Positions 4,691-38,661 of a stretch of 64,000 nt of DNA are shown here, one piece after another (position 1 is the stretch's first letter; every line of letters begins with the position of its first letter). The DNA comes from Rhodospirillales bacterium (lineage in GTDB: Bacteria; Pseudomonadota; Alphaproteobacteria; Acetobacterales; Acetobacteraceae): positions 40,442-104,441 of the forward strand of contig JAGWQN010000073.1 of the NCBI GenBank assembly GCA_028869995.1. The letters are read 5' to 3'. The position numbers and the translations under genes are program-made. The notes under the pieces were generated by a model. The model saw only the letters and a program-made list of their open reading frames with translations. It had not been told where the DNA came from and ran no database searches.

Positions 4691-5608
4691 TCAGCGGCCG
4701 GCGGGCTCCTTCCGCCCGGCCAGGCTGCCCAGCATCGCCCAGACCTGCTGCGTCGCCGCGGACTGCGTGCCGGCAAGCCGCATCGCGTGCATCGCGATGG
4801 TCGTCTGGGTGAGCGGCTTGTTCAGCTGCAGCAGCGAGCCTGCCGCGATCTCGCGCGCCGCAAGCGACATCGGCACCCAGGCGACGCCGACGCCGGCGCT
4901 GGCGAGCTGCAGCGCGGTGAGCGTCAGCGCGGTCTCCGCCTTGGGCCGGATGAAGAAGTTCTCGCGCAATCCGGGGAGAAGCTCGCGGTCCATCACTTCG
5001 CCGAAGAACACGTCGGAAGGGTAGGCGATGATGGGCAGCTCGCGGCGGCGCATGTGTTCGGCCAGTTGCTTTCGCTCATCGGCGGCGAACACGGGCACGA
5101 CAGGCTCCTCGCCGATGAACCGTTCCTCCAGATACGAGCCCGTGCCGCTCTCTCGTTCCGCGTGCGTGCGATAGGCGATCATCAGGTTCGCCCGCCGCCG
5201 CACCAGCAGGTCGAAGCACTCGTCGCGATTGCCCGAACGTGCATGCACGCTCACGTCCATTACCGCCGACAGCGCTTCGATGAGGCGCGGCACGATGGTC
5301 GTCGCGATGGCGTGCTGGCTGGCGATGACGAAACGATTGGGGCCGCTCTTGTCGTGCGCGCGCAGCTCGTAGAGCAGCTTGTTCATGCGCGCGGAGAGAT
5401 CCTGCAGCACCTCGCTCTGTGCGAGGACGGTGGCGCGCAGGCGTATCGGCCGGCTCGACCTGTCGATCAGCTCGGCGCCGACCTGCTGTTCGATCAACCG
5501 GATGCGACGCGAGAAGGCGGGCTGGCTGACATGGCGCAGGTCCGCCGCCGCGCTGAGCGAGCCGGCGCGCAGGATAGCCAGGATATCCTCGATCCATTCC
5601 AGTCGCAT
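4691..5608 (-). CDS. LysR-family transcriptional regulator of the cuyA operon
   Basis: The 305-residue protein starts at [13 protein letters not shown] with GGAGGAG just upstream; the track's 23-residue extension has no support. The winged HTH spans about residues 3-62 ([25 protein letters not shown]), followed by a LysR substrate-binding domain. It is divergent from cuyA across a 152-base gap that holds a perfect inverted repeat. The classical LysR arrangement suggests it represses itself and activates the cuyA operon in response to a sulfonate or amino-acid ligand. The ligand is inference; the family assignment is firm. Confidence 0.9.
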
Positions 5609-5637
5609 GGGCTCCTCCGGTACCGCCGTTCGGTGCA

Positions 5638-5660
5638 CAATATGCAGTTCATGCATATTG
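5638..5660. promoter_or_regulatory. Perfect palindromic operator in the LysR/cuyA divergent promoter
   Basis: The sequence CAATATGCA-GTTCA-TGCATATTG is a perfect nine-base inverted repeat with a five-base spacer. It lies 29 bases upstream of the LysR start and about 100 bases upstream of cuyA. It is AT-rich in an otherwise GC-rich gap. Position and symmetry fit a LysR regulator's recognition/autoregulatory site. Confidence 0.65.
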
Positions 5661-5760
5661 CCTGACCAAATCGGCAATTGAAACCTCCGGCCGGCCCGCT
5701 ATCGTCCCCGTCAACGGGCACTTCGCAGGCCCACCGTGTGCTCGGGTTAGGGAGTCCAGT

Positions 5761-6810
5761 ATGCACCTGTCGCGTTTTCCTCGGCTGCACTTTGCGCACC
5801 TGCCGACGCCGCTCGAGAAGCTGCCGCGCCTGAGCGAGGCGCTGGGCGGCCCCGAGATCTGGATCAAGCGTGACGACTGCACCGGGCTCTCGACCGGCGG
5901 CAACAAGACGCGAAAGCTCGAGTTCCTGATGGCCGAGGCGTTGGCCCAGGGCGCCGACCGCGTGCTCACCCAGGGTGCCACGCAGTCCAACCACGCGCGT
6001 CAGACCGCGGCCGCGGCGGCCAAGCTGGGGCTTGCCTGCCATATCCTGCTCGAGGACCGCACCGGCTCCACGGACCCCGACTACAACGCCAACGGCAACG
6101 TGCTGCTCGACTTCCTGCACGGCGCGACGGCCGAGAAGCGGCCGAGCGGGCTCGACATGAATCAGGAACTCGAGCGTGTCGCCGATCGCTTCCGGGCCGC
6201 CGGCGGCAAGCCCTATGCGATCCCGGGCGGCGGCTCCAACACCACCGGCGCGCTGGGCTACGTCAACTGCGCGCTGGAACTGGTCTCGCAGGCGAACGAC
6301 CGCGACCTGGTCATCGATCACCTGGTCCTGGCCACCGGCAGCGCCGGCACGCAGGCTGGCCTGCTGGCCGGCCTCTCGGCTCTCAACGCGCACATCCCGG
6401 TGCTGGGCATCGGCGTGCGGGCGCCCAAGGAAAAGCAGGAGGAGAACGTCTTCCGCCTCGCTGCCGCCACCGCCGAGCGTCTCGGCTGCCCTGAGGTCGT
6501 CAAGCGCGCGGATGTCGTCGCGGACTGCAACTATGTCGGCCCGGGTTACGGCATGCCGACCCCTGGCTGCATCGAGGCGATCACCATGTTCGCGGAGCTC
6601 GAGGGAATTCTCCTGGACCCCGTCTACAGCGGCAAGGGTGCTGCGGGCATGATCAACCTGATCCGCGAGGGCCACTTCAAGCGGGGTGAGCGGATCGTGT
6701 TCCTCCACACGGGCGGGTCCGCCGCCCTGTTCGGCTACACCAAGATCTTCGACTTCGGCGAGCGGACACGGTCGCTCGCCGCCAAGGCGCAGCGGCGCGA
6801 GGCGGCGTAA
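5761..6810 (+). CDS. cuyA: L-cysteate sulfo-lyase / D-cysteine desulfhydrase family PLP enzyme
   Basis: A 349-residue fold-type II PLP enzyme of the ACC-deaminase/D-cysteine desulfhydrase family. The pyridoxal Lys is K49 in [23 protein letters not shown], the glycine-rich phosphate loop region and LHTGG follow. The sequence strongly recalls characterised CuyA ([34 protein letters not shown]), which converts L-cysteate to pyruvate, ammonia and sulfite. D-cysteine desulfhydrase is the main alternative. Sulfonate-type ABC transporters and an HpsN-like dehydrogenase in the same operon favour cysteate. It starts at ATG with AGGGAG upstream, and the stop overlaps the next start (TAATG). Confidence 0.82.
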
Positions 6811-8021
6811 TGGTGCCGCCGCCCTTCCGGGGCGTCTTTACGCAGCAGGAGCCGATCGACGAGGCGTCGATCGCGGGCGCCGTCGCTGTGCTCCGGTCCG
6901 GGCGGCTCCACCGCTACAACGTTCTGCCCGGGGAGGTTTCCGAGGCGGCCCTGCTCGAGCGCGAGTATGCCGCCTGGCAGGGTAGCCGCTACTGCCTGGC
7001 CTGCGCCTCGGGGGGGCAGGCGATGCAGCTCGCGCTGCGCGCCTTCGGCCTCGCGGCGGGAGAGCCGGTTCTGACCAACGCCTTCACGCTCGCGCCGGTT
7101 CCTGGCGCGATCGTCGCGGCTGGTGGTCGTCCGGTGTTCGTCGAGACCACGGCCGACCTGGTGATCGACCTGGACGATCTGGCGCGAAAGGCGGGCGAGA
7201 GCGGCTCGCGCCTGTTGCTGCTCTCGCATATGCGCGGCCACCTCGTGGACATGGAGGCTCTGGGCCGGCTTCTGGCCGAGCGCGGCGTGACGCTGATCGA
7301 GGATTGCGCGCACACGATGGGCGCGCGGTGGAAGGGGCGGCGCAGCGGCTCCTTCGGCCTTGCCGCGTGCTTCAGCGCGCAGACTTACAAGCACATCAAT
7401 TCCGGCGAAGGCGGGCTGCTGGTCTCGGACGATGCGGCGCTGATGGCGCGCGCCATCGTCTCCTCGGGATCCTACATGCTCTACGATCGCCATGGCGCGG
7501 CGCCGGAGCTGGACCAGTTTGCCGCCGCGCGCCTGGAGAGCCCCAACCTCTCGGCGCGGATGGACAATCTGCGCGCCGCGATCCTGCGGCCCCAGCTGGC
7601 AGCGCTGGACCGCAACATCGATCGCTGGAACGAGCGTTACGCGGCCGTCGCGCATGAGCTCGAGCGGGTGCAGGCGATCCGCCTGCCGGCGCGGCCGTCC
7701 GCCGAGTCTTTTGTTGGCAGTTCGATCCAGTTTCTGGTTCCGGGCATTGGGGCTGAGACCGCAAGGCGTTTTGTCGCGGCGAACGCGGCCCTCGGTGTCG
7801 AGCTGAAATGGTTCGGCGATCCCGAGCCTCGCGGATACACCAGCACTCATCTCAGTTGGCGCTTCGTCGATCCCCAGGTTCTGCCGGCCACGGATCGGAT
7901 TCTGTCCGATGTCTTCGACATGCGCATTCCCTTGACTTTCTCGGTCGGGGATTGCACGCAAATCGGACAGATCATCGCGCATTGTGCCGGCGAACTCGGG
8001 GCCGCGGCGATGGCCGGATAA
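6810..8021 (+). CDS. DegT/DnrJ/EryC1/StrS-family PLP aminotransferase-like protein
   Basis: A 403-residue fold-type I PLP protein. The likely Schiff-base Lys is K194 in AQTYKHINSGEGG, and LIEDCAHTMGA carries the Asp that contacts the pyridine nitrogen. DegT enzymes usually aminate keto-sugars, but no sugar-nucleotide gene is nearby. It is one-base coupled to cuyA and precedes a sulfonate-type binding protein. A role with a C3 sulfonate (for example sulfopyruvate/cysteate amination or racemisation) is therefore possible but purely inferential. A role in a different amine or keto-acid conversion is equally open. Confidence 0.8.
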   Translation: MVPPPFRGVFTQQEPIDEASIAGAVAVLRSGRLHRYNVLPGEVSEAALLEREYAAWQGSRYCLACASGGQAMQLALRAFGLAAGEPVLTNAFTLAPVPGAIVAAGGRPVFVETTADLVIDLDDLARKAGESGSRLLLLSHMRGHLVDMEALGRLLAERGVTLIEDCAHTMGARWKGRRSGSFGLAACFSAQTYKHINSGEGGLLVSDDAALMARAIVSSGSYMLYDRHGAAPELDQFAAARLESPNLSARMDNLRAAILRPQLAALDRNIDRWNERYAAVAHELERVQAIRLPARPSAESFVGSSIQFLVPGIGAETARRFVAANAALGVELKWFGDPEPRGYTSTHLSWRFVDPQVLPATDRILSDVFDMRIPLTFSVGDCTQIGQIIAHCAGELGAAAMAG

Positions 8022-32495: not shown

Positions 32496-33305
32496 GTGCT
32501 ATCCCGATCCAGGACATGTCCACAACCTGGTCGCGAGCCGGGGGAGGGGCGGATCGAGGCGGTCGTTTCGTTGACGCGAGCGATGCCTTGGTTCGACGGA
32601 CAGAACCCTGCCGCCTGGTGGGACAAGGTCAAGGCGCTCTTGCCCGCGCCGGGACGGGCAGCAAAGGTCGCGCATCATGCAGCGCTCCCATGGCGGGAGA
32701 TAGGACCCTTTATGGCCTTGCTCGGGTCGCAGGCCGGTGTCGGCGCCGCTGCGCTTGAGCCTCTGATTCTGACAGCAACTCGGAATGGCGACGTTCCGGG
32801 CACAACTTGGTATGCGATCGACCTGGCGGAGCGTATCTGGACCATTCCGGCCAATCGTATGAAGGCCAACCGTGAGCATCGCGTTCCGCTCTCGTTGCCC
32901 GCATTGGCTGCTCTTCAACCGATGAAGCGGCTCGCGGATGGTTCAACCACTGGCAAGCTTCGTGCTTTTCCGGGCCGAAAGGCAAAATCATCGATGAGCG
33001 AGATGACTTTCACGGCCGCGCTCCGGCGAATGGGTCGTAAGGATCTGACTGTACACGACTTTCGCTCAACATTTCGTACGTAGTACGAAACCGCAACGAT
33101 TCATCCGGGCGAACTCGCAGAGCAAGCTCTTGCATACACAATCAGTAACAAAACCGAGACTGCTTATGCGCGAGGTGTTCAGCTGGAGCGCCGCCGACCG
33201 TTGATGGACGATTGGGCCAGGGCCTGCGCAATAGATTGCGGGCCTCGGATTCTACGCGGCACGAGTGAGACGCCTGAGCAAAAGGACAGCAGAAGCGGCG
33301 TATAG
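32496..33305 (+). pseudogene. Tyrosine-type (P4-like) integrase remnant with an in-frame TAG
   Basis: Homology begins around NPAAWWDKVKALLPAP and continues through the catalytic domain. The first catalytic Arg is in TATRNGDV, WTIPANRMKANREHRVPLS is typical of this family, and HDFRSTFR supplies the second box. A TAG at 33081-33083 follows FRT, yet the same frame continues with YETATIHPGELAEQALAYTISNKTETAYARG, the rest of the domain including the nucleophile Tyr, to a TAG at 33303-33305. Relatives read FRDWAxET here, so the stop sits at the usual Trp (TGG to TAG). The N-terminal arm-binding half is missing and a conserved His (ALAH) is Tyr. The gene is a decayed fragment, not an active recombinase. 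Confidence 0.82.
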
Positions 33306-33618: not shown

Positions 33619-36600
33619 ATGAGCGTGTTCATTGCTAATCCGCTTCTTGATCAGGAAAAACATTATAATAATGGCACAGTGGTAACATTGGGCCGCATCT
33701 TTGTTGCTCAACAAAACGGCATTGGAGTTGCATTACAGCCGTCGTTTTCCGGCAATGCAAACAACGGCGCTTCGCAGCCATTTTCCTCTTCGGCGTTGTG
33801 GTTTCCGACTTCCAATACGTCAACGTTTTCAGCTACGGGAAGTGGACTGCAGTATCCCGAGGTTGGTATATATTTCACTGCAACGGGATCCTTCTCCGGA
33901 AATGGAAACAGCGTTCCGGGAGCAACGGATACGGCTTTCGTCATCGGTCCCGCCACCATCCAGGAGACTGGCCTCGGCTCGACCCCTGTGACTATCGGTC
34001 CCGGCACCATCACGGGCTCCGGTACTGTAGGTACACTCGCGCTTGATGGGACGCTCGTCATCGCCGCGGGAATGGTCACGAACACGTTATACGTAGGTGT
34101 TGACTATACTGGAAGCTCGTACCAAGGCCCCCTCCTGTCCGGCCAAGGGGTGGCGTCTAACCCACAACAAAATTTCGATTGGTTGGTTCCTGGGGTGCCT
34201 TATTCACTGAATAAGACAGATATATATTCATATTCGCCTGGTTCCATCGCCAACGCCGGAAGTCTCGGCGCGATCGTCACCTATGTCGGCCCGACGGTAA
34301 CGCAAAACGGAACCGTCATTCCGGCCACGACGCTTTCTCCGGTCACCTATGCCTCCAACGTCATCACCGTCAGCGGAACGATCACGTCGGATACGGGGAC
34401 CCTGGCGGATTCGACTGTTGGCGTGAGCGGGTTGCTGAGTTTCGACGGCCAGGAAGGCGTGGACGTTCGCTACGGTTCCACCATCGTCGTGCCGAGCGGC
34501 GGGAACGTGCAGAGCAGCGTGGTGGCGCTGGAGGCGGGCCAGGGCGCGGCGCTGTCGGTGGCCGCGGGCGGCACCGTCGGGCTCACCGGCGGCGCCAGCG
34601 GTCCGAACGGGCAGGAGGGGCTGCTCGATAACGGATATGCCGTGCTCAAGGGCGGCAGCCTGCAGAGCCCGAACGCCGTGCTTGAGGTCGGCGTCTCGGG
34701 CGCGGGCACGTTCGCGGTGCAGGCGGGCGGGCAGGCGACGACCGGGTTTTCGGAGGTGGGCGGGCAAGGCACGCTGGGCGTTTCCGGCGCCGGCGCGCTG
34801 TTCCAGAGCAACGCCACGGGCACGCTGGTCGATAACGGCCAGGTCAGCGTCGACGGCTCGGCGACGCTGAGCGTGGGTAACGCGACGCTGGGCGAGGCGG
34901 CGGGCGATGCCGGCTACGCCATGGTGAGCGCCGCCGCGATGACGCTCGCCAACACGCTCACCATGGGCGAGAGTGGCGCGGGAACGTTGTCCATCCAGAA
35001 CAACGCCAGCCTGCAGACGGGCGGCAATGTCGAGCTTGGCGCGCAGAGCGGCGGCTCGGGGTTGTTCTCGCTCGGCTCCGGCGCTTCGGCGCGCGTGCAG
35101 GGCAACCTCTCCGCGGGCGCCTCCGCGGGCGGGACGGGCTCGGTAGCGATCGATGGCGGCACGACGACACTGACCGTCGAGGGCGACACCGCGATCGGCG
35201 AGGGCGGGACCGGCACGCTGGCGCTGACCGGTGGCGCGAGCCTGCTCGCCGTCGGCGCGCTCGATATCGGCAGCGCGGGTGCGACCAACGGGCTCGGCAG
35301 CGCGAGTGTCGCGGGCGTGATCGTCGCCAGCAACGATCTCTCGGTGGATAACGGCTCGCTCTCGCTGGCAACCACTGGAACACTGGCGGTGAGTGGCGCG
35401 CTTTCCGCGGGCGACGCCGCGGGCGGCACCGGCAGCATCGCGCTCGCCGCCGGCGCGCAGGTGACGGACATCGCCGGTGTCACCGTCGGTGGCGCAGGCA
35501 CGGGCAGCCTTGCCGCGACGGGTGCCACCATCAACGCGCCGGGAGCGGATTTCAGCGTGGGCGAGAGCGCGGGCGGCAACGGCAACGCGAGCATCACCGG
35601 CGGCCTGCTCAACGTCGCCTCGATGGCGGTGGGCAGTGCCGGCAATGGCGCCTTCGATCTCTCGGGCAATGCCACGGTGAGCGTCGCGAACGATGTCGCG
35701 GTGGGCGACAGCCTTGGCGGCATCGGCGTCGCTACGCTGAGCGGTGCGGGCAGCATAATGACCGTGGGCAACGGTCTCACGGTGGGCGGCCAGGGCAATG
35801 GCGGGCTGGTGGTCAGCGGCGCTCAGCTCGATGTCGTGCACGGCGATATCTCGGTCGGCGAGAGCGCGGGTGGCTCGGGTGCGCTGACGGTCAACACCGG
35901 CTCGCTCGCCGCCGCCGGCAACCTCGACGTGGGCTCGGCCGGCCAGGGCGTGGTCGAACTGCAGCTTGGCGCGAACCTCGGCGTGCTGCCCGATGTCAGC
36001 GTGGGCGAGAGTGCGACGGGTAGCGGGCTGCTGTCGCTCGATTTCGGGATGCTGCAGGCGCAGACGCTCTCGCTCGGCGGCTATGGCCAGGCGACGCTGG
36101 AGCTCGCCGCGGATTCGGTGCTGACGACGAACAGTGCCGCGATCGCCGAGCAGGCGACGGGCTACGTGCAGCGCGCGGACATCAATCAGAGCACGTGGCA
36201 GGTGGCGCAGAGCCTGGTGGTGGGCGATGCCGGCCAGGCGCAGGTGACGATCAGCAACGGCGGCGCGGTGTTCGCGCAGGGCAGCTTCGGCATCGGCGGC
36301 AAGAAGGGGGCCGCCGGCACGGTCGATGCAACCGGCGGCGGCAGCACCGTGGACTTCTCGTCGCTGGTGGTGGGCGATGGCGGTTCCGGCACGTTGCTGT
36401 TGCAGAACGGCGCAACCTCGGCACCGGTAAAGGGTCAGATCGGGACGATCGAGATCGCGGCGCAGGGCGGGTCCGTGGGGACGATCGCACTCTCCGGCGG
36501 CAGCGACCTGACCGGGGCGACGCTCGATGTCGGGGGAGCGGGGACGAGCGAAGGTGGCGCAGGCCTGCTCACGATCGACACCGGCGCGAGCGTGAGCGTG

Positions 36601-37926
36601 ACCGATGTGACGGTGTTCGGGCATGGCACCGTTGTGCTCTCCGGCGGGACGCTGGCGAGCAGCCCCGTCACGGTCGAGGCAGGCGGGACGATCGGCGGCA
36701 CCGGCACCATCTCCGGCAACGTCACCAGCGAGGCGAGCATCCTGGCGGATCGCGGCCGGCTCGAGATCACCGGTTCGATCGCCGGCACGGGCGACGTGGT
36801 GCTGCAGACGGGCGCGGACCTTGCGGTGGGCACCGGTATCGCGGCGACGCAGACCATCGATGGGCTGACCACCTATCAGGAGACCCTGGACCTGCGCGGG
36901 CTCGCCTTCACGGCCAGACAGATGACGACGCTGGCCAGCGGCGATACGTTGACGATCAGCAACGGTAGCCAGGCGATGGCGCTCACGATGGGCAACAGCA
37001 CCGGCCTCGCCTATCGCCTCGGCGCGGACGGCAGCGGCGGCACGGAGCTCTCGGTCGCCTGCTACGCGCATGGGACACGGGTGCTGACGCGCGATGGCGA
37101 GGTGGCGGTGGAGCATCTCGCCGTGGGCGACCGGGTGGCGACGCTCTCCGGCGGGCTGCGCGCGGTGCGGTGGATCGGGCGGCGCGGCTATGACGGGCGT
37201 TTCGCGGCCGGCAATCCGCTGGTGCTGCCGGTCACGATACGTGCCGGCGCGCTCGGCAGGGGCCTGCCATGGCGCGACCTCACCGTCTCGCCCATGCACG
37301 CCCTGCTGATCGATGGCGCGCTGGTGCCCGCCGTGGCCCTCGTGAACGGGACGAGCATCGTGCACGCAACGTCGGTGGAGGCCGTGGCGTACGTGCATGT
37401 CGAACTCGATGGGCACGACATCCTGTTCGCCGAGGGTGTCGCCGCGGAGAGCTTCCGCGACGACGGCAACCGAGGGCAATTTGCCAACGCGCGGACGGCA
37501 CGGGGAGGAAACGCGCCGGTGGCATCCTGCGCGCCCGTGGTGACCGGCGGCGCGTTGGTGGAGCGGCTGCGGCGGCGCATCGGCGGGCTTGGCGAGCCGG
37601 GCGAGCCGGGTTCCCTGATCGGCCATGTGGACACGGTGTCGGACCCGAAGATCTCGGGCTGGGCCCTCGACCTCGCGAACCCGGCGCACGGTGTCGTGTT
37701 GGAAGCGTTCGTGGGCGGCCAGCGGATCGGGGCATCGGTGGCCAATTGGTGGCGCCCGGACCTCGCGAGGGCCGGTTACGGCACCGGGCACCACGGTTTC
37801 GAGTTCGTGCCGCCGGACGGGATCGCGGCAGCGGATATCGTGTTCCGCCGCGCGGCAGATGGCGCACCACTCGCTGCGCACGCCGGCACGCTGACCGCCA
37901 TCGCACCCATTGCCCTCGCGGGATAG
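33619..37926 (+). CDS. Giant beta-helix repeat protein with C-terminal Hint domain
   Basis: A 1435-residue protein. Residues 1-200 are a low-GC, Asn/Ser/Thr-rich segment with no clear signal peptide. Residues about 200-1130 are Gly/Ala/Ser/Thr-rich tandem coils of roughly 24 residues, with recurring VGESAGGSG, VGSAG and GAGTL elements, predicting a right-handed beta-helix. Residues about 1147-1280 form a Hedgehog/intein (Hint) domain: CYAHGTRVLTRDGEVAVEHL, with the nucleophile Cys at 1148 and the TVSPMHALL histidine block. The last 100 residues (VDTVSDPKISGWALD, GYGTGHHGFEF) resemble a module often attached to Hint proteins and glycosyltransferases of Acetobacteraceae. No beta-barrel is present, so it is not a classical autotransporter. 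Secretion followed by Cys-dependent self-cleavage is inferred. Neighbouring genes give no clue. Confidence 0.82.
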   Translation: MSVFIANPLLDQEKHYNNGTVVTLGRIFVAQQNGIGVALQPSFSGNANNGASQPFSSSALWFPTSNTSTFSATGSGLQYPEVGIYFTATGSFSGNGNSVPGATDTAFVIGPATIQETGLGSTPVTIGPGTITGSGTVGTLALDGTLVIAAGMVTNTLYVGVDYTGSSYQGPLLSGQGVASNPQQNFDWLVPGVPYSLNKTDIYSYSPGSIANAGSLGAIVTYVGPTVTQNGTVIPATTLSPVTYASNVITVSGTITSDTGTLADSTVGVSGLLSFDGQEGVDVRYGSTIVVPSGGNVQSSVVALEAGQGAALSVAAGGTVGLTGGASGPNGQEGLLDNGYAVLKGGSLQSPNAVLEVGVSGAGTFAVQAGGQATTGFSEVGGQGTLGVSGAGALFQSNATGTLVDNGQVSVDGSATLSVGNATLGEAAGDAGYAMVSAAAMTLANTLTMGESGAGTLSIQNNASLQTGGNVELGAQSGGSGLFSLGSGASARVQGNLSAGASAGGTGSVAIDGGTTTLTVEGDTAIGEGGTGTLALTGGASLLAVGALDIGSAGATNGLGSASVAGVIVASNDLSVDNGSLSLATTGTLAVSGALSAGDAAGGTGSIALAAGAQVTDIAGVTVGGAGTGSLAATGATINAPGADFSVGESAGGNGNASITGGLLNVASMAVGSAGNGAFDLSGNATVSVANDVAVGDSLGGIGVATLSGAGSIMTVGNGLTVGGQGNGGLVVSGAQLDVVHGDISVGESAGGSGALTVNTGSLAAAGNLDVGSAGQGVVELQLGANLGVLPDVSVGESATGSGLLSLDFGMLQAQTLSLGGYGQATLELAADSVLTTNSAAIAEQATGYVQRADINQSTWQVAQSLVVGDAGQAQVTISNGGAVFAQGSFGIGGKKGAAGTVDATGGGSTVDFSSLVVGDGGSGTLLLQNGATSAPVKGQIGTIEIAAQGGSVGTIALSGGSDLTGATLDVGGAGTSEGGAGLLTIDTGASVSVTDVTVFGHGTVVLSGGTLASSPVTVEAGGTIGGTGTISGNVTSEASILADRGRLEITGSIAGTGDVVLQTGADLAVGTGIAATQTIDGLTTYQETLDLRGLAFTARQMTTLASGDTLTISNGSQAMALTMGNSTGLAYRLGADGSGGTELSVACYAHGTRVLTRDGEVAVEHLAVGDRVATLSGGLRAVRWIGRRGYDGRFAAGNPLVLPVTIRAGALGRGLPWRDLTVSPMHALLIDGALVPAVALVNGTSIVHATSVEAVAYVHVELDGHDILFAEGVAAESFRDDGNRGQFANARTARGGNAPVASCAPVVTGGALVERLRRRIGGLGEPGEPGSLIGHVDTVSDPKISGWALDLANPAHGVVLEAFVGGQRIGASVANWWRPDLARAGYGTGHHGFEFVPPDGIAAADIVFRRAADGAPLAAHAGTLTAIAPIALAG

Positions 37927-38661
37927 ACCAATCCGGTCGCCGCGAGCGGGCGGGGGAGCGCAAACTGAGGCAACACATCCGGCACTTCCGCGACAGCCCC
38001 GTCGCCTGCACCCGTTCGTCAACCCGCCTCCGGTGGGTAATGGAACGAACGGCGAATTTGACGATAGACACGGCTGCTTTGGCAAGGCATCGGTTGCGCT
38101 GAATTGCGTCACAAAAGCAATGAATCCCCGTCAACTCCAGCAAGAACGGGAGCCGGCCCACGTCGGAGGGCCATCTGAAACGCCGCATCTTGGCCTGATC
38201 GCATGTCGACCCGGCAATGTAAGGGCGCCGCCGTCGGGCGACGCCAATGTGTCAGTCCCGGCTTCGCAGCAGTTCCGAACGTCAACCCGCCAATTATTGC
38301 TGATCACGAACCTTCCGCGCGCGCCCTAACTCGCCCAGTTCTGCGACACCGGCGTAAGTTCGTGGCTCTGGGCGAGTGGGCAGGCGGCCGGGAGCCGATC
38401 AGGCAACGTGAGCACGACGCGAACCCCCGGAACCCTGGCCCCGGCGCTCGATATAGGCGTCGAGCGAAGCGAAATCGATGCGTGAAAACCTTTCGATGTG
38501 ACAGGAAAAACGTCTGTATATCACATCAAGTCATGAAGGTTTGATTTTCCGATTGACAGAATATGCATCGCCTCCGTTGGTTCGATTACGCCAGGGTGGT
38601 GCCACAAAACCATGAAACAAGCCAAGAATAGATTTCTCATCCTGTAGCGCGGTGGGGCCTG
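37927..38661. other. 735-base gene-poor stretch after the Hint gene
   Basis: No ORF here has credible coding character; the long minus-strand ORF that enters it is the antisense shadow of the Hint repeats. AT-rich patches occur near 38500-38560. It may be decayed insertion DNA, given the transposase remnant that follows. Confidence 0.45.

Follow-up and report, generated by a model that had tools for sequence, protein, structure and literature searches.

The window examined here is a stretch of 64,000 nucleotides from contig JAGWQN010000073.1 of a Rhodospirillales bacterium (Acetobacteraceae, assembly GCA_028869995.1). On its forward strand, positions 33619..37926 harbor a gene coding for a protein of 1435 amino acids, in which a putative beta-helix adhesin is followed by a Hint_2 domain, a linker, and a C-terminal module referred to as GWA; the coordinates and length of this open reading frame (ORF) had been given correctly by a first-pass annotation of the same DNA. 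From the N-terminus onwards, the protein consists of a unique region without a signal peptide (aa 1–229, 33619..34305), a long series of coils rich in Gly, Ala, Ser, and Thr (aa ~230–1100, 34306..36918), a pre-Hint strand region ending at the junction '..DGSGGTELSVA|C' (aa 1101–1147, 36919..37059), the Hint_2 domain (aa 1148–1291, 37060..37491), a conserved helical linker (aa 1311–1321, 37549..37581), and the GWA module (aa 1330–1424, 37606..37890), a beta-sandwich of ~95 residues common to glycosyltransferases and other glycan enzymes. Taken as a whole, the protein might represent, with roughly even chances, a surface adhesin whose C-terminal unit processes itself and is functionally linked to glycosylation.

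Hint_2 (PF13403) is the single significant Pfam domain of the protein (aa 1148–1281, 149.9 bits versus a cut-off of 28.4). In an alignment of 54 relatives (A1), from which the pre-Hint strand region was also delimited, the invariant residues are Cys1148 (37060..37062), i.e., the Hint position 1 nucleophile, His1227 of the block B motif S-P-M-H (37288..37299), the block F-like His1266 (37414..37416), and Glu1277, in agreement with the Hint domain, the nucleophile, and the conserved His block that the first-pass annotation had proposed. The same alignment was the basis of an AlphaFold2 (AF2) model of aa 1101–1435 (mean pLDDT 85.8), in which Hint, the helix at aa 1311–1321, and a beta-sandwich (~aa 1333–1411) follow one another; Foldseek matched this model to the bacterial intein-like (BIL) structures BIL2 (6y75, E 1e-5) and 2lwy and to the MchDnaB-1 intein (TMt 0.70). 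The residues employed by inteins are Thr B:7, His B:10, and a terminal His-Asn, whereas type B BILs have no block G and undergo cleavage without splicing (PMC4031507). In the window protein, Ser1224 and His1227 occupy B:7 and B:10, and Glu1277-Ser1278 (37447..37452) replace the terminal His-Asn that marks class 1 inteins and type A BILs. Since this His-Asn is missing, splicing and Asn cyclisation are not expected, and N-terminal cleavage without splicing is the predicted chemistry. The domain is similar in this respect to type B BILs, which also combine the Hint fold with the loss of the block G His-Asn (PMC4031507); the likeness is one of shared features, and, unlike them, the window Hint sits in a putative adhesin with a glycan module.

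The distribution of the catalytic residues suggests, indirectly, that the passenger is the target of the Cys/His pair, and hence that self-cleavage might take place. Among the Hint_2 domains collected by profile (two proteins present as two rows each were counted once), Cys1 and the block-B His are both kept in 87 of the 89 distinct domains preceded by 100 aa or more, whereas both are lost in seven of the eight distinct proteins in which Hint begins the chain; the difference between the two groups (87/89 vs 1/8; Fisher p 2e-8) is to be read with the caution that kinship is ignored and that the lineages are not independent. Self-cleavage is thus supported indirectly by the fact that the pair is kept with a passenger and lost without one. 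The seven Hints without the pair comprise four passenger-free Hint-glycosyltransferase fusions (L139/L169, L196, the second gene of L199 at 5110–7293, and L207) and three proteins from the window's own genome (L011, L012, and L014). The persistence of passenger-free Hints, either fused to a glycosyltransferase or free, without Cys and His points to a second, non-catalytic use of the fold, and by extension the window Hint might itself be a non-cleaving structural cap or docking domain; this appears improbable, however, given that almost all Hints with a passenger keep the pair. The pseudo-Hint of the four fusions seems to have been retained as something besides a cleaving unit.

The module located behind the linker gave no match to any Pfam family and no convincing sequence match in the PDB. 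An alignment of 43 rows (A2) disclosed the invariant residues G18, W19, A46, R50, D52, and F65, and the resulting family pattern (GW, A, R-D, F) is present in the window module; the glycan-type module of roughly 100 residues suspected at first reading is therefore real, being homologous to modules located on glycan enzymes. In the window's genome, GWA is carried by the window protein, a paralog (C146), a cluster (C52), and a GT4 glycosyltransferase. In a class-wide sample it occurs in 14 of 192 genomes (three of the window's family and 11 of other families), where its partners are GT2, GT4, GT92, sulfotransferase, and polysaccharide pyruvyltransferase domains, and it might be considered a previously undescribed marker module of glycan-building enzymes. 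A Hint domain placed directly ahead of a C-terminal domain is also the layout of polymorphic toxins (PMC3482391), in which case Hint would release GWA as a toxin at contact. However, GWA is common to biosynthetic enzymes, and its sequence is conserved, not polymorphic. A small immunity-like gene was not recognised next door either, the first recognised gene after the adhesin gene being SOUL, 1 kb away. As neither a variable C-terminal toxin nor an immunity gene was recognised at this locus, a toxin appears very improbable.

Two further observations concern these C-terminal modules. In other alphaproteobacterial families (L218–L222), GWA is found on small proteins with a hydrophobic, transmembrane-like end segment. 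Moreover, another post-Hint module of ~140–180 aa ('DDRR.LGV ... RWT[DN]G') was flagged in 19 of 67 relatives (L010, L048–L051, L079, L098, and others); Pfam scans of two of them, L010 and L079, gave no match to it. In 35/67 family members neither recognised module follows Hint, and many of them have a short tail only.

The association between GWA and glycosyltransferases, the most telling clue to this system and one out of reach of the first-pass annotation, was apparent at the sequence level when a protein combining the two (GWA-GT) was used as a query against 120 genomes of the window's family. A Hint_2 domain was located within 5 kb of 25/32 full-length matches (module and enzyme) and of just 5/29 enzyme-only matches (p 2e-6). 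Of these 25 full-length matches, 11 carry Hint_2 on the same ORF, and for most of the rest the domain is encoded ~450 bp upstream, on the strand of the match; in L060, L061, and L062, passenger, Hint_2, GWA, and glycosyltransferase are embedded in one polypeptide. The window's genome itself harbors a GWA-GT gene ending 109 bp upstream of another Hint adhesin paralog on the same strand. No description of a Hint-glycosyltransferase fusion was found in the literature search, which mostly did not cover subscription papers.

As for the passenger, it is composed of Gly (21 percent), Ala (14 percent), Ser (10.5 percent), and Thr (10.5 percent), and is devoid of Cys. The Gly spacing has its maximum at 49 aa, corresponding to two coils of ~24.5 aa (although the autocorrelation peak is weak, 0.10); extended over aa 230–1100, this period gives ~35 coils, the same number of Gly/Ser/Thr-rich coils that had been estimated in the first-pass annotation. 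NCBIfam recognised the T5SS/PEP-CTERM-associated repeat TIGR04393 eight times (55.5 vs a cut-off of 23 bits). The structure prediction of the repeats that the annotation had proposed yielded an all-beta model (aa 400–1147, mean pLDDT 75.9), confident mainly at ~aa 470–820; it was built on three sequences because the passenger homologs are too divergent for a deep alignment. Its best PDB fold matches in Foldseek were antigen 43 and the TibC-glycosylated TibA, both weak (no E-value ≤0.001); a sequence search of the PDB with the full protein found nothing related. Antigen 43 and TibA are beta-helical adhesins. Together with the repeats and the all-beta model, these matches agree with the beta-helix originally proposed.

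The relatives align over the later coils, Hint, and the C-terminal module, leaving the N-terminal part private: no relative aligning to aa 1–229 was found in 60 genomes. This region has no hydrophobic core (maximum 12-aa Kyte–Doolittle (KD) value 1.57) and its frame stays open for just two extra codons (1437 vs 1435 aa), so that no signal peptide is hidden upstream; at the other end, the protein terminates in GWA and no barrel domain was revealed by the Pfam scan. Both the absence of a visible signal peptide and that of an autotransporter barrel had been anticipated, and the window protein thus lacks the two marks of type Va autotransporters, i.e., a Sec signal peptide and a C-terminal beta-barrel. 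Since TIGR04393 and AIDA repeats are known in type V passengers, it might be supposed that a classical autotransporter has degraded and lost its barrel. Nevertheless, a strongly hydrophobic N-terminal stretch exists in only one of 47 complete-start relatives (against 12/130 background genes), the C-termini of these 47 are mostly Ala or Gly, with no aromatic residue and hence no Phe or Trp, and the architecture is uniform throughout the family; such an origin can hardly be credited. The protein shares with AIDA-I, Ag43, and TibA, which have dedicated enzymes (AAH, TibC), the Ser/Thr-rich beta-helix and, in its relatives, a linked glycosyltransferase, but it differs from them in lacking signal peptide and barrel, and the glycosyltransferase of its relatives is GT4-type with GWA, sometimes on the same chain.

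A possible export route is suggested by a conserved locus (L043, L112–L124) containing an HlyB-type exporter, HlyD, and a Sel1-repeat protein, accompanied in several relatives by large TPR/GT2/GT4 proteins and one more glycosyltransferase. Across the 120 genomes, an ortholog of the exporter and Hint_2 occur together in 78, Hint_2 alone in 15, the exporter alone in eight, and neither in 19 (p 2e-7, counts uncorrected for relatedness). RTX repeats, a hallmark of type I secretion, are present in three Hint relatives, whose genomes (G008, G024, and G121) are among those with Hint_2 alone. On the basis of this co-occurrence and of the RTX passengers, type I secretion would be the likeliest route for the passenger. 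Like RTX type I proteins, the window protein has no signal peptide; unlike them, it has no RTX repeats, and no exporter genes adjoin it. A set of ABC genes adjoining the C5 paralog at first resembled type I secretion, but judged from sequence they are CydDC next to RecQ.

The domain layout, the catalytic residues, the GWA-glycosyltransferase association, and the retention of Cys/His only with a passenger can be read directly from the sequences; from these we infer cleavage, glycosylation of this passenger, the type I route, the adhesin role, and the following order of events. Lacking a Sec signal, the Ser/Thr-rich beta-helix would be synthesised in the cytoplasm; GWA, placed after Hint, would dock a GT4-type glycosyltransferase, or might be the remnant of a fusion to one, and the enzyme, docked or in cis, would glycosylate the Ser/Thr-rich coils. 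The passenger would then be exported, most likely via HlyB/HlyD-type type I secretion. The Hint thioester would form at Ala1147-Cys1148 and be resolved by simple cleavage at 1147/1148, freeing the rod from the C-terminal unit. Some observations weigh against this scheme. No glycosyltransferase lies beside the window adhesin gene, and in the incomplete assembly the sole GWA-GT detected lies on a different contig. Pro, which can slow cleavage when placed ahead of Cys1, precedes Cys1 in many GWA-type relatives, although the window protein has Ala1147. As to export, besides the kinship left in the co-occurrence counts, the Hint_2 genes lie outside the exporter operon. Moreover, a type I signal sits in most cases at the C-terminus, a position hard to reconcile with a cut made prior to export or with a glycosyltransferase on the same chain.

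The thioester might also have a different fate. Because the terminal His-Asn is absent, its resolution needs either an outside nucleophile or water, and in the Hedgehog Hog domain, with which the window protein is expected to share the N-terminal thioester chemistry, a functional region behind Hint delivers the nucleophile. Here, in a bacterial system without a sterol region, that place is filled by glycan-enzyme modules or a glycosyltransferase. It is therefore conceivable, if unlikely, that a sugar, glycolipid, or hopanoid brought in by the C-terminal module or the glycosyltransferase attacks the thioester through a hydroxyl or amine, leaving the adhesin covalently bound to a glycan or lipid of the surface. 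A true bacterial counterpart of Hedgehog, with the adhesin C-terminus joined to a sugar or glycolipid provided by a same-chain or next-gene glycosyltransferase, is slightly less likely still. No acceptor is known, 35 members are without a recognised post-Hint module, many of them short-tailed, and hydrolysis takes fewer assumptions. Passenger release is favoured over covalent attachment; if the thioester did pass to a sugar, this would be a new way of anchoring proteins to glycans.

The window protein is not a singleton, being a member of a large Acetobacteraceae family known only as 'Hint domain-containing protein', and its nearest named relatives belong to Acetobacteraceae and other Rhodospirillales-type metagenome-assembled genomes. 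Hint_2 (E ≤ 1e-20) was detected in 93/120 family genomes, the maximum being 22 copies in one genome, so that these proteins abound in acetic-acid bacteria and their kin; the window's genome (154 contigs, 77 percent complete) contains 14 Hint_2 places. With alphaproteobacterial Hint_2 (PF13403) proteins the window protein shares the domain, Cys1, [ST]xxH, the E[ST][FY] end, and repeat passengers, and it differs in having GWA after Hint. No function of Hint_2 proteins was described in the papers found; one is listed as unknown (PMC11999647), and Hint (PF13403) and RTX are enriched in fast-responding Rhodobacteraceae (PMC12487129). The Hint_2 family was already known by name, while the GWA module, its glycosyltransferase link, and the Cys/His retention pattern are new. 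The layout passenger-Hint-GWA-glycosyltransferase offers a testable role for these proteins in adhesin glycosylation and self-trimming, and suggests a widespread mode of decorating and trimming bacterial adhesins. The family also includes giant members, whose Hint_2 lies in frames open for 4572 and 3910 aa (G117:C1:1669484 and 1588576), a tandem same-strand pair of Hint adhesin genes in the window's genome (L035 7627–14376), and four such genes in a row in G147:C18.

Concerning the surroundings of the gene, a long antisense ORF (34228–38112) was judged spurious, being the mirror of a GC-rich gene. PADLOC gave no match, and no promoter was found by a sigma-70 scan. Just upstream of the adhesin gene, at 32496–33250, lies what is left of a tyrosine phage integrase gene (PF00589), interrupted by an in-frame stop; the GC content dips locally here, a hint that the adhesin gene may occupy an acquired segment.

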